34,175 nt of DNA from ANME-2 cluster archaeon (GTDB taxonomy: Archaea > Halobacteriota > Methanosarcinia > Methanosarcinales > Methanocomedenaceae): the NCBI GenBank assembly GCA_014237145.1, contig JAAXOC010000036.1:1-34175 (forward strand). The letters are read 5' to 3'. The position numbers were made by a program, and so were the translations under genes. The notes beneath the pieces were generated by a model that was not told the origin of the DNA, made no database searches, and saw only the letters and a program-made list of their open reading frames with translations. Shown piece by piece: positions 9,787 through 18,347 of the stretch. The first letter of the stretch is position 1. Every line of letters starts with the position of its first letter.

Positions 9787-11274
9787 TTATACCTCCAATT
9801 CAGATAGCGTTTTTGTGATTTTACTCTCCAGTTCCAGGATTTTCTGCTTGATCACTTCAGGCTTTTCATACTGGATTTCCTCATATTCAATCTCATTATA
9901 CTTGGAAATGCTCAAATCGTAATCATTCTCTTTAATCTCATCAACCGGCACAAAGAAGCATTTTGCTTTCCTGTCTTCATACGTCTCCTTCTCCCTTCTC
10001 CCGAATTTCTCAAGTATATCAGGAATATCCCCTTTCCCATCCATAAACGTCCGCTTGTCATCCAGGCTGTACCCATCTGCGGTCATATCATAGAACCACA
10101 CTTTCTTAGTAGGCTCGCCCTTGGTAAAGAAGAGCACTCCGGTAGACACCCCTGCATAGGGCTTGAACACCCCTGAGGGCATGGAGATTACCGCATCCAG
10201 CCTGCACTCCTCCAGCAGTCTCTTCCGTATGGCTTTATGCGCCCTTGAACTGCCGAAGAGCACCCCGTCGGGCACAATTACCGAACACCTCCCGCCGCTT
10301 TGCAGCATGGTGTACATAAGTTCAAGGAACAATATCTCGGTCTTCTTTGTCTTGATGGTGAACTTGCCGCCAATCTCTGATTCATCTATACTGCCTTTGA
10401 ATGGCGGGTTGGCCAGTACCACTGTGTAATGGTTCTCCTCATCATAGCGGGCTGACAGGGTGTTTATCTGCTTGATGTGGGGGTTGTTGATGCCGTGCAT
10501 CATGAGGTTCATGAGGGAAATGCGGCTCATGGTCTGGTCGAAATCGTAGCCGTGGAGGGTATGTTCCCGCAGCACCTCGTATTGGTCAGGATTCAGCTTA
10601 TCGCCCTTGAAGTTGTATTTATTCCCTTCTTCGTCCACTTTGATAAATTCGGATGAGGTATTGTTTTTCAGGATGTGCTCATTGGAAGCAACCAAAAAGC
10701 CGGCAGTACCGCAGGCAGGGTCGCAGATGATGTCGCCAGGAGAAGGGTTTGCAAGTTCCACCATCATCCTGATTATATGGCGGGGTGTCCTGAACTGGCC
10801 GTTCTTGCCTGCGGTCTTGAGTTCTGAGAGCAGGTATTCGTAGAGGTCGCCCTTGGTGTCCCTGTTCTGCTCTTTGATGTGCATGTCGTTGATTATGCGC
10901 ACGGCTTCAATGAGCAGGGAGGGTGTGGGTATGGCGAATACTGCATCTTTCATGTAGATTTCATAGAGGGAGTCTTCGCCGCCGAGGGTGCGCAGGAAGG
11001 GGAATACTTTGTCCCGCACATGATATAAGATGGTGTCGGCGGGGTAGTTGGACCATTTTGACCATTTGCATTCTTCACTGCCTGTGAAGATTGACTGGTG
11101 GGGTTTGCCTGATAGCTGTGCGTCCTGTTCCCGTGCAATGTCTTCGTCTTCGAGGCGTTTCATGAAGAGGAGGTAGGACATTTGCTCTATGGCCTGGAGG
11201 GGGTTTGAGATGCCTCCACTCCAGAATTTGTCCCAGAGCTGGTTGATCTTGGATTTGAGGGTTGGGTCAAGCAT
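9787..11274 (-). CDS. hsdM: Type I restriction-modification DNA methyltransferase subunit (HsdM)
   Basis: A 495-residue adenine N6 methyltransferase. It has the HsdM N-terminal helical domain (residues ~5-140), the SAM-binding motif DPACGTAGF (185-193), and the catalytic NPPF (289-292). The C-terminal part (ELESKITKTLSELEV) is helical, as expected for contact with HsdS. The frame is uninterrupted. Its partners are the broken hsdS (12411-14030) and hsdR (15594-18347) upstream on the same strand. The fic gene lies between hsdS and hsdM. With a disabled specificity subunit the enzyme is probably an orphan unless another HsdS is supplied. The start codon is preceded by GGTGA. Confidence 0.94.
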   Translation of the reverse strand: MLDPTLKSKINQLWDKFWSGGISNPLQAIEQMSYLLFMKRLEDEDIAREQDAQLSGKPHQSIFTGSEECKWSKWSNYPADTILYHVRDKVFPFLRTLGGEDSLYEIYMKDAVFAIPTPSLLIEAVRIINDMHIKEQNRDTKGDLYEYLLSELKTAGKNGQFRTPRHIIRMMVELANPSPGDIICDPACGTAGFLVASNEHILKNNTSSEFIKVDEEGNKYNFKGDKLNPDQYEVLREHTLHGYDFDQTMSRISLMNLMMHGINNPHIKQINTLSARYDEENHYTVVLANPPFKGSIDESEIGGKFTIKTKKTEILFLELMYTMLQSGGRCSVIVPDGVLFGSSRAHKAIRKRLLEECRLDAVISMPSGVFKPYAGVSTGVLFFTKGEPTKKVWFYDMTADGYSLDDKRTFMDGKGDIPDILEKFGRREKETYEDRKAKCFFVPVDEIKENDYDLSISKYNEIEYEEIQYEKPEVIKQKILELESKITKTLSELEV

Positions 11275-12410: not shown

Positions 12411-12534
12411 CTACATATTGATAAGATTTTGGTTATTTTGCATATGTGTAGGGGTAACTGGAAGTTGGGTGGTTAGTTCTCCGCGAAAGGCTTGTTGCAT
12501 GAGGGTGTTGAAAAGGTCTTCGAGATGCTGGCAG
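12411..12534 (-). pseudogene. hsdS: hsdS, C-terminal end, separated from the rest by an insertion
   Basis: This minus-strand frame reads CQHLEDLFNTLMQQAFRGEL, then a short tail to the TAG at 12411-12413. The sequence LFxSLMQxAFRGEL is the characteristic end of many HsdS proteins. It begins at the target-site duplication of the inserted element (12535-12787). If the element and one duplication copy (259 bases in all) are removed, it joins in frame to the upstream fragment, giving QTQSC-QHLEDLF. Confidence 0.8.
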
Positions 12535-12787
12535 CTCACTTTCCGCAGGTATCTGTAAATTTTAAATAATTTCTCATGATAGTGGTTTACATATTTCTAA
12601 AATATTATATTTATATTGTGAATACCTAAAAGATATGTTTTGAATATATGATTTGCCAATTTCGGCAGAAAATATACATGCATTTTTTCAAACCATTTAT
12701 CTAAATATACAGAAAACCACAATCATTAGGCATCATTCAATGTTTAAAAAAAAGATTTGTTTTCAAAGTATACCTGCGGAATATAAG
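12535..12787. mobile_element. MITE-like 253-bp insertion in hsdS
   Basis: The ends are imperfect 18-bp terminal inverted repeats (12535-12552 and 12770-12787) identical at 15 of 18 positions, including a perfect 12-bp core TTCCGCAGGTAT / ATACCTGCGGAA. TGGCAG lies directly on both sides (12529-12534 and 12788-12793), as expected of a 6-bp target-site duplication. Subterminal inverted repeats (12576-12588 and 12714-12726) match at 12 of 13 positions. The interior is very AT-rich and has no meaningful coding frame, so a transposase would have to act in trans. Removing 259 bases restores the hsdS frame exactly. I do not recognise the family. Confidence 0.85.
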
Positions 12788-12936
12788 TGGCAGGATTGGG
12801 TTTGGTATTTTCGTATTTGTTCGTCCTTTTCTACGATATTAACAAATTCATCCTGAATTTCGATTGGAGGTACGGTTATATTAATCAAACTGAATTTTTT
12901 CATTGATATATTATACATTGAATCACTAGTTCCTGT
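12763..12936 (-). pseudogene. hsdS: hsdS, continuation of the second target-recognition half after a nonsense codon
   Basis: Directly after the TAA at 12937-12939, in the same frame, the translation reads TGTSDSMYNISMKKFSLINITVPPIEIQDEFVNIVEK. This is the standard HsdS conserved-region signature (TGTSxSMxNIS...PxPPxxxQxxIV). The frame enters the inserted element at 12787 and stops at 12763-12765. Confidence 0.8.
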
Positions 12937-13320
12937 TTAAAGTGCCAATATTCTTTTTCTAATGGCAGAGTGGCTTAATACAAATTTTAAATATTCAGGC
13001 AACATATACTTTTTTTCAACTTTTATTTTCCATAATTTATCAGGCAACAATAAGAAAGGATAATTTTCTGTTATTAGGCATGTAGCACCAACAAGTTCTA
13101 GGGTATTTGCTCTGCTAAACAAAACATCCCTTTTTTCAGGAGTAACAATTTTTTTCAAATCCTTCTCATTGATTACTTTGCATTCTTTCGGTAAAAAAAC
13201 ACCACTTGCTACAGCACTTACTTTCAATACTGCAAACTCATTTTTTAGACGAGGTTTAGATTCTCCGTTAACGCTCCATCCAGCTTGAATATCTACTAGA
13301 ACTTCTCTTATTTTTTTCAT
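12937..13320 (-). pseudogene. hsdS: hsdS, second target-recognition domain fragment
   Basis: A 127-residue fragment, KKIREVLVDIQAGWSVNGESKPRLKNEFAVLKVSAV...MLPEYLKFVLSHSAIRKRILAL, which is HsdS target-recognition domain 2. It ends at an in-frame TAA exactly where relatives continue with A-TGTSxSM, and that continuation follows directly (12763-12936). Its ATG overlaps the stop of the first half. The gap between halves looks like a one-base deletion: TGG to TG in the usual MFGDPVxNPxGW sequence. The ATG may be used by translational coupling, but the product would lack the central and terminal conserved regions in the normal arrangement. Confidence 0.78.
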
Positions 13321-14030
13321 CCCATCGGATTCTTCACCGGGTCCCCAAACATCTCCAAAAAAGTGCTTTTCAAAAACTCATCGGTCAGCTCATCAGCTTC
13401 TCTTCTCCACCCCTTGAGCTTTTCAGCTTTTTCAAGAATGGCAACGATTTTCTTTTGAGTGGGGAGGGGCGGGAGAAATATTTCTATTTTTTTTAGTTTA
13501 GATAACGGGATGAATTTTTGGTTACCCTCCCCAGCAATATTCAATAATACTTTACGTGTCGGCTCATATTTCAGATAATATTTAAGGTATTTATTTGAAA
13601 TTATTTCTCTTTTCAATTTGAATAAAGCAACATTTTTTATACCAAATTCAATGTCACTATCTACTATTGTTGGCTTCCCAATTGTTCCTATTTTTGAATA
13701 TAAAATATCTCCTTTTTCAGGCTTAGATCTTTTAATAATCTGTTCATGTTGCTCTCTTGTAATATATAATACATTTTTGAAAGAAATTCCCTCATCTTTA
13801 AGATCCTTTGAAGTAATCAGAGGAACTCCTTCTTTCTTATCTACAAGAGGTGTTTTATCGTGTGTTCCATCAGTAATGAGCGTACAAACATATTCTAATT
13901 TCTTCGATTCAAAACCTTTCGGGAAATCATTTTGCCTGTACATTCCCAGCACCTTGAACCCCAGCCTCTCATAGAAACACATGGATTCGGGTTTGTAATC
14001 TACAGTAAGATACCGGCAGCAGAATTGCAT
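13317..14030 (-). pseudogene. hsdS: hsdS first half fused in frame to a GNAT acetyltransferase C-terminal remnant
   Basis: Residues ~1-30 (CCRYLTVDYKPESMCFYERLGFKVLG) match the C-terminal end of GNAT acetyltransferases (...LTVDxxPESxxFYERLGF). From about residue 35 the protein is an HsdS first target-recognition domain (FESKKLEYVCTLITDGTHDKTPL), followed by the central conserved region (IFLPPLPTQKKIVAILEKAEKLKGWRREADELTDEFLKSTFLEMFGDPVKNPMG). The frame stops at TGA 13317-13319. The upstream part of the GNAT gene is absent, and the DUF3307 stop lies three bases before the ATG. HsdS recognises the DNA target of the R-M complex. A half-HsdS of this size might dimerise, but no sign shows that this happens here. 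Confidence 0.75.
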
Positions 14031-15593: not shown

Positions 15594-16865
15594 TCAGCAG
15601 CACACCTTAATCGCATTGCACTTCTCCACTATTGCCTTCAACTCATCCAACTGGAAATAATCACGTGGATGCTCTTCAGACTGCGGCAGCCTGGCCATAT
15701 CAGAAAGCTCAATATATTTCCTGTCTGCAAAGACCTTCTTTAACATCAGCAAAAAATCCAGTTGTTTTGAGTTGTAAATATTATTACCAATGATAAACTC
15801 ATTAAACTTCGCTTCAATTACAGTCTTTGGATCCTGTTTTACAGTCATCCCGATAATATCCAGCAAGAACACCATAAAATCAATTTTCTGGAAATTCTGG
15901 ACATTCTCGATAGTTAATTCCGGCCTTAATGCAGACAACTGCGCTTCAAGTTGTTTAATCTCACCTGATGTAATGCCCTTGCCACCCCTTATATTTTGAA
16001 TCAACAGGTTGCTTTCCAAAAACTCCTTGAGTTCCACATCTTCCTTGATCTTCTTCGTAAACTTCTCCCTGCTGAGCACCAGATCAAGCGCATCGATCTG
16101 GATGACTTTCTTTCTGGTCGGCTCATAATACTTCATCAGCGGTGACAGTTCCCTGATCATAAATTCAACATCATCAAATGTCAGGTCATCCCAGAAATCA
16201 TCCTGGAGCACTTTAATAAGGTTATCCTTATTGTTCCCCACTTCACTAAGACTGTCTTTTTTCCTGAGAACATTTTCAACCCTTTCCTGCACATATGTCC
16301 TCATATGCTCTATCTTGTCAAGTTTTTTATCCAGGACAAAACTGAACAACTTTTCAGTCTGCAAAATAAAAGCTGACACATTAGGGTTAGCTTCCTGTGA
16401 AAACATGATCAAGGGCACAATATCCTTTTTCAATTCCCTTACATATTTTTCCAGCCTGAAAGAGTTCTGTTTGATAGTGTTAATAGCAGGTAACTTCTCC
16501 CTGGTAATAGACGACTCTTCATCAAGATTATCAATATAGTACAGGATTTTATTTGAGATAATCGTCTTTTGCTTCTCATCAAGAGGCTTATCCAGCAACT
16601 CAATCCTGTTTTCAAATATCCTGGTTATCACATCCGTCCCGGGTCCACGCTCTGCTCCCACTTTAATATTATGATATTTTACATTTGAATGCCCGCCAAT
16701 TTTAAAATCAAGGATGAGAAAATCGTATTTCCCCCTCTCCTGCAGCCAATCCCTGTGTTTACATGACTCCAGGTTCCTGGTACCCCTGCCAATCATTTGC
16801 CAGAACCTGATATGGGAGAATACAGGTTTCACAAAAACAAGGTTGCACACTTCGGGAATATCCAC
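15594..16865 (-). pseudogene. hsdR: hsdR, C-terminal part after an internal TGA
   Basis: The translation continues without a frame change from the upstream part: VDIPEVCNLVFVKPVFSHIRFWQMIGRGTRN (helicase motifs V-VI of HsdR), then an EcoEI-type C-terminal domain rich in charged helices to the TAG at 15594. Relatives read MLDTGIDVPE, and here the Gly codon is TGA (GGA to TGA is one base). The GTG right after the stop has no ribosome site, so separate translation is unlikely. The C-terminal domain normally binds HsdM/HsdS. Confidence 0.85.
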
Positions 16866-18347
16866 TCATGTATCCAGCATCCCGACTGAAAGGGCAATTC
16901 TTGGCTCAGATTCTTTTTGGAACCGTTTGACCTCATCCTCTGATCTTGTCATATCCGACGTAATTACCTGCACATCACTGCTGAGTTTTGGATATACTTT
17001 TCCAAATATATTCTTCATATGTTTCGCATGCCGCTGGCTGGCACAGAAAAATATCGTTTTGCACGGCTTGCCTTCATCAGATTTATAGCAGGAATTCATA
17101 AATTCCCTGATGATAAGTTCATTCGTCTTATCATCCATGAATACCTTATCAAATTGGGGTCCGTCAAAATAGGTACTATCGGGGTCGATCTCCTGCCTTC
17201 TCAACTGGTCTTTTAAAGATTTGCTCAATTCAGTACCTTCAATGCCTAATGCCAGGACTTTGGTGTCAATGATCTCTGCCCGGTATGAAACAAGAACTTC
17301 ATCCCTGACTGCCTCATCATAAGAGTATTCAACTGTTGGCTTGTTGTCTTCACAACCAAACAGGGCATACGTATTTCTGGACTCATGTTCTCTTGGGGTG
17401 GCGGTCAGACCTATTTTTATTGCATCAAAATATTCATTAATGCGGTTATTTTTATCATAAATTGACCTGTGAGCCTCATTAAATACGATGAGGTCAAAAA
17501 ATCCGGGACTTAACATTCTATAGAGTTTTTTTGGTTTACCACTGCTCAAAGTCTGGATAGTGGAAACATATAATCTGGCACTGGTGGTAAATCCATCGCG
17601 AAGACTGGCTACCGATTCTGTAAAGAATTCCTCAAAGCCGTTAGTTTTTGCCTGGTTAACCAGTGCGATTCTATCTGCTATGAATAATACATTGCGAACC
17701 ATATTAGCGTCAATCAACATTTTTATCAAAGCCATGGCCACCCTTGTTTTTCCCGTGCCGGTGGCCATTTGCACCAGCGCTTTTCGATGACCTTGCGAAA
17801 AATGTTCGCTCAATTTCCTCACAATCTGCTGGCTTCTTGGCCTATCTACGATCCGGGGATTGATTTTAACATCCTTTGGGTCCAGCCTTTTATGGTACAG
17901 GTCATTCCTTCTTCTAAGGTCTTCCTGGGAGAACGGGCCGCTGACTTTCCGCTCAATCCCATCATCATCAATAAAACGCCAGATGTATCCGTTGGTTAAG
18001 AAGATAGGGACCTTTCGATCAATCTGGTTTTCAATATCCTTGGCATACGTGCGTGCCTGGATCCTCCCCATCTCTTCATCCTTTGAGAATCGTTTTGCCT
18101 CGATAATAGCCAGTACGGAATTGTCTTCGTCCAGCAAGACATAGTCAATAAATCTATCAACGCTTTTTTCAACACTGCCATTAAAAAACACAAATTGCTT
18201 CTGATTAAAATCAGATTTTACAGAATTGACTTCTTCTTTAATGTATTTCCTAATCCAGCCAGCTTTTCCTAATTCCGGATCAATATACTGTTTTCTGGTT
18301 TGATTTTCGTTGATTAAATCGACAACATCATCAAATTCTTCAACCAT
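16866..18347 (-). pseudogene. hsdR: hsdR, N-terminal part (nuclease and first helicase lobe), truncated by TGA
   Basis: A 493-residue N-terminal portion of the type I restriction endonuclease. The nuclease core is FIDYVLLDEDNSVLAIIEAK, with D68 and E83-A-K85. Walker A is MATGTGKT (194-201), and motif III is GLTATP. Motif II should be DEAH but reads NEAH (N290, codon AAT at 17478-17480), and the Asp coordinates Mg-ATP in this helicase family. The frame ends at TGA 16866-16868 inside motif V. A product would lack the second half of the motor. The start ATG at 18345-18347 has a TATA box (GTTTATAAGT, about 18372-18381) at leaderless distance. The gene is the first of the hsd cluster. Confidence 0.88.

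Follow-up and report, generated by a model that had tools for sequence, protein, structure and literature searches.

An IS1634-type MITE within hsdS of an ANME-2 cluster archaeon

The hsdS gene in the stretch of ANME-2 archaeal DNA analysed here (the window, 34,175 nucleotides, contig C36 of its genome) is interrupted by a MITE of 253 bp, which was very probably moved into the gene by an IS1634-family transposase encoded elsewhere, with duplication of TGGCAG. Multiple copies of the element, the duplications beside them, an empty site in a homologue and, in a related genome, an IS whose ends are identical and whose transposase is intact are all directly seen; mobilisation in trans by a transposase of the type encoded by that IS (L127) is the most likely course, judging from sequence. 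In the mechanism proposed, an IS1634-family DDE transposase supplied from elsewhere would recognise the CTYANWTTCCGCAGGTA ends in trans and move the element, insertion duplicating an AT-rich target of 5–6 bp; landing in the 3′ part of the type I hsdS would have doubled TGGCAG and left the C-terminal ~40 codons outside the reading frame.

The element and its ends

The element (12535-12787; Table 1) has a GC content of 26%, against 44% for the window, and contains no usable open reading frame, the longest stop-free frame being 48 codons. Its terminal inverted repeats of 18 bp are imperfect (15 of 18 positions match), with a perfect 12-bp inverted core at 12541-12552 and 12770-12781; TTCCGCAGG is the core within the MITE ends. 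Further inward lie subterminal inverted arms (12556-12588 and 12714-12746), which are 76% complementary; the 13-mers are those listed in Table 1 as subterminal motifs. The sequence-only reading had described these ends, the core, the TGGCAG on both sides and the subterminal repeats, and had denied the segment any coding capacity; on all these points the sequence bears it out. By its properties the segment is a MITE: it is short (253 bp, where the limit is about 500 bp) and without a transposase gene, it has its inverted repeats in common with an autonomous IS, as the first 17 bases of its left repeat CTCACTTTCCGCAGGTAT are identical to both ends of the cognate L127 IS, and it occurs in several dispersed copies with target duplications.

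Table 1. Features at the insertion site in hsdS (positions of the window)
Feature	Position	Strand	Remark
hsdS remnant coding for the C-terminus (QHLEDLFNTLMQQAFRGEL...), severed by the insertion	12411-12534	-	aligns with the C-terminus of the intact HsdS at L142
Target site duplication, left copy (TGGCAG)	12529-12534	.	other copies show other 5–6 bp duplications
MITE, 253 bp, nonautonomous, IS1634-type	12535-12787	.	100% and 88% copies in the same genome; copies in relatives
Left terminal inverted repeat CTCACTTTCCGCAGGTAT	12535-12552	+	100% over 17–18 bp to the IS of G010
Left subterminal motif TGATAGTGGTTTA	12577-12589	+	43 nt from the end; position equal in other copies
Right subterminal motif TGATTGTGGTTTT	12713-12725	-	63 nt from the end
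Right terminal inverted repeat, reading inward CTTATATTCCGCAGGTAT	12770-12787	-	
Target site duplication, right copy (TGGCAG)	12788-12793	.	
Second half of hsdS, with in-frame TAA (12937-12939)	12788-13320	-	shares 61% identity with the intact G057 HsdS
First half of hsdS (Methylase_S), read in another frame	13317-14030	-	foreign-looking, GNAT-like N-terminus

The interrupted gene and the restriction locus

The insertion cuts off the C-terminal ~40 codons of hsdS; the intact HsdS of genome G057 (384 aa, 61% amino acid identity) crosses the insertion point without an insert. When the flanks are joined, ...QTQSC and QHLEDLFNTLMQQAFRGEL... share one frame, and to this extent the exact frame restoration claimed in the sequence-only reading holds; it is only local, however, because hsdS also contains an in-frame TAA (12937-12939), and its two halves are separated by a frameshift near 13317-13320. 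Further, an in-frame TGA (16866-16868; GMLDT*VDIPEV) divides hsdR (15594-18347, minus strand); hsdM (9787-11274) is open. With the stop codon and the frameshift of hsdS and the TGA of hsdR present besides the insertion, the type I restriction system looks decayed, the MITE not being its only damage. Single-base assembly errors may be behind these lesions in hsdS and hsdR. In the first half of hsdS the N-terminus (13900-14030, minus strand) looks like the final part of a GNAT acetyltransferase, as though a fusion had cost the gene its own start.

Copies and target duplications

The whole genome containing the window (G000; 2.97 Mb, 118 contigs) was searched for copies. An identical one (253/253) lies at C10:3829-4081 and one of 88% identity at C88:11782-12033; a copy cut by the contig end occupies the very start of C10 (99 bases at 100%), and a truncated one is found at C52:5074-5206. 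The complete copies have unrelated flanks and a duplication of their own at each site (TGGCAG at C36, ATGAT at C10, TTGAAT at C88), which settles that the 253-bp segment is a mobile element. The identity of two copies over all 253 positions suggests that the insertion is recent.

Among 100 relatives, matches at E <= 0.001 were obtained in 20, nearly all belonging to family f1, which contains the window, and family f2, which includes ANME-2c-GOS; counted among the 20 is G041 (f5), whose match of 24 bp is at chance level. Locus L133 has its contig prefix (DAWR01) in common with COP2, a named ANME-2c genome of the Methanogasteraceae. Copies of ~253 bp occur in ANME-2a/b, in ANME-2c and in an uncultured Methanosarcinaceae genus. 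The last of these, genus g23, comes from a class-wide sample; its member CSMAG_2493 has at least about 20 matches, this figure being a lower bound like all copy numbers from the wide searches, in which scoring was confined to a few candidates in each genome. Most full copies measure 252–263 bp, and variants of 294 bp and 447 bp also exist.

Exact duplications of 5–6 bp flank 18 of the 23 MITEs of the first set, their A+T content being 77%, and five of nine in the g23 set; two further g23 copies represent one orthologous insertion, with the duplication GTCAAC if the right end is shifted by one base. A random 5-bp flanking match at the exact spot has a probability of about 0.001 per copy, and such matches recur at independent sites in other copies, so that chance does not account for them. 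The TGGCAG in hsdS has a lower AT content than most other duplications, which counts against the explanation preferred here.

Several arrangements of copies deserve mention in their own right. At L155 and L157 (genomes G216 and G207) the MITE occupies an identical insertion site; this is an orthologous insertion, older than the split of the two genomes. In L060 (1501-1790; G006:C37) a full MITE is followed by the duplication CTTTAT and then by the opening ~30 bp of another copy, which is a tandem or self-adjacent insertion. The copy in L151 (269-522; G209:C49) and that of the window are 85% identical across different archaeal families, a value like the identities within f1, and this may point to horizontal transfer. 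Viral contigs gave no exact match to a left-end pattern, and a search of plasmids gave no match.

The IS1634 partner

The same terminal repeat is found at C17:13788 of the same genome, 81 bp before an IS1634 transposase gene which has a frameshift and is cut short by the contig end. An intact IS of 1,715 bp, with CTCACTTTCCGCAGGTA at both of its 17-bp ends and the target duplication ATATAA, is present in JAIOQW010000209.1 (L127) of the related genome G010. Its transposase (532 aa) matches the IS1634 model NF033559 with 409 bits (cut-off 100) and also DDE_Tnp_1, and has a YREK-like signature, Y-(2)-Q-(3)-E-(6)-K at residue 408, the R of which is mostly absent in this IS1634 family. Duplications made by IS1634 elements are AT-rich tracts of 5–6 bp (PMC2266710); the 18 MITEs mentioned above and the G010 IS have exact duplications of this size, with 77% A+T. 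In the L127 genome there is also a MITE with these ends, flanked by the duplication GTAAA; the ends of its MITE and its IS share about 40 bp at 82–85%. Beyond about 40 bp from each end there is no extended match between the MITE interior and the f1 IS, a point that counts against their pairing. Further, variants of the terminal repeat pair MITE with IS by lineage: CTCACTTT is found in the MITEs and ISs of f1, CTGACATT/CTCACATT in both MITEs and ISs of f2, and CGCACTTT is the terminal repeat of the IS of G005, which is grouped in the same genus as the genome of the window in the genome set, and of the 294-bp MITEs. Matching IS length and ends suggest that G005 is isolate S7142MS1, an ANME-2a archaeon (Methanocomedens).

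The family, which the sequence-only reading did not recognise, can now be named as IS1634 through the IS with identical ends. That reading had proposed a MITE-like element in hsdS with a 6-bp target duplication, had suggested looking for further copies with duplications and for a full-length IS sharing the ends, and would have yielded to a lack of copies and relatives or to the segment being natural in homologous hsdS genes; its proposal is supported by the copies in this genome and its relatives, by the 1,715-bp IS and by the uninterrupted homologous hsdS. An intact cognate transposase was not found in the assembled genome of the window, where only the frameshifted copy at the contig end and broken remnants are present; the intact partner may be hidden in a gap of the assembly, and a MITE is not defined by having one in its own genome.

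IS1634 copies of ANME-2c (L130/L126, L133, L135, L137) have an outer arm of ~88 bp homologous to the left arm of the MITE plus a degenerate inner terminal repeat, which sits where shorter ISs have theirs, and an IS1634 copy of G028 (2,088 bp) has MITE-like arms at both ends. Either the MITEs were derived by deletion from long-armed ISs, or the IS acquired MITE arms. A wider idea, possible although rather doubtful, is that the interior is kept as a selected part of the transposition complex, that MITE and IS exchange ends, and that in some IS1634 elements of ANME-2c the left arm now forms the outer end; it draws on the near-constant length of ~253 bp and on the fixed spacing of the subterminal TGATAGYGGTTTT-type motif in three families of archaea and, in outline, in Methanosarcina.

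Alternative explanations

Most copies hold a length of 252–263 bp even at about 70% identity, and a single strand of the element is better folded than its shuffled versions (z -4.1 and -5.9), as would suit a conserved structured noncoding RNA or a repeated regulatory cassette that is no transposon. Such a fold follows from the inverted repeats, however, and RNAalifold retains little of it past the invariant ends; the duplications at unrelated sites and the ends identical to those of an IS likewise speak against this reading, which is very improbable. With covariation not above that of shuffled columns and no match in Rfam, the element does not qualify as a structured RNA family and no RNA function is supported; a tRNA search of the element found none.

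It is scarcely credible that hsdS naturally varies in this segment, or that the assembly is chimeric here, and that there is no insertion: the assembly does consist of 118 contigs with repeats at contig ends, but an identical element is present at another locus and the element occupies many sites in other assemblies, and the segment is lacking from the intact G057 HsdS. There is a small chance that the MITE was moved by a different agent, be it another IS1634 subgroup or a transposase outside IS1634. An intact transposase of 604 aa at C65:17775-19445 is the only full-length IS1634-like one seen in the same genome and would be a candidate; yet it is not flanked by paired matching ends within 4 mismatches, and the element has exactly the ends of the C17/L127 subgroup.

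Relation to known elements

The IS1634 ISs of ANME-2 (L127, L128, L130, L132) have the same terminal repeats and the same 5–6 bp duplication as the MITE, but are 1.7–2.1 kb long and carry a transposase gene, which the MITE lacks. In the literature searched there was no paper combining MITEs and ANME, and Table 4 of PMC3852290 contains no ANME copy; the word "undescribed" in the sequence-only reading is apt for the sequence in ANME, but not for the kind, which is published for Methanosarcina. Short ANME-2 repeats hereby gain a family name and a partner, which aids the annotation of these uncultured methane oxidisers and the interpretation of their pseudogenes and contig breaks. Together with the duplications and the partner ISs, the copies provide a usable data set on the origin and spread of IS1634 MITEs; no general rule is altered.

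The published MITEs of the IS1634 family are those of ISMac10 in M. acetivorans (249 bp) and of ISMba11 in M. barkeri (247 bp) (Kamoun et al. 2013, PMC3852290, Table 4). Like the ANME element they are about 250 bp long, with inverted repeats of 18–20 and an IS1634 partner, and the direct repeat of the ISMba11 MITE is reported as 6. The Methanosarcina IS1634 elements analysed here have C-N-Y-ACTTTCCGCA ends and 5–6 bp duplications, and a Methanosarcina genome of 5.8 Mb (G181) has two elements of 251 bp with CNNACTTTCCGCA ends, in which a subterminal TGCTATCGTTTTT lies at a distance of about 43 nt from the end. The Methanosarcina MITEs differ from the ANME element in their interior, which is not alignable as DNA past the ends, and in host lineage. 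Given the published elements of 247 and 249 bp and the 251-bp elements with the same layout, the element in hsdS is a member of a kind of IS1634 MITE already known in Methanosarcina.
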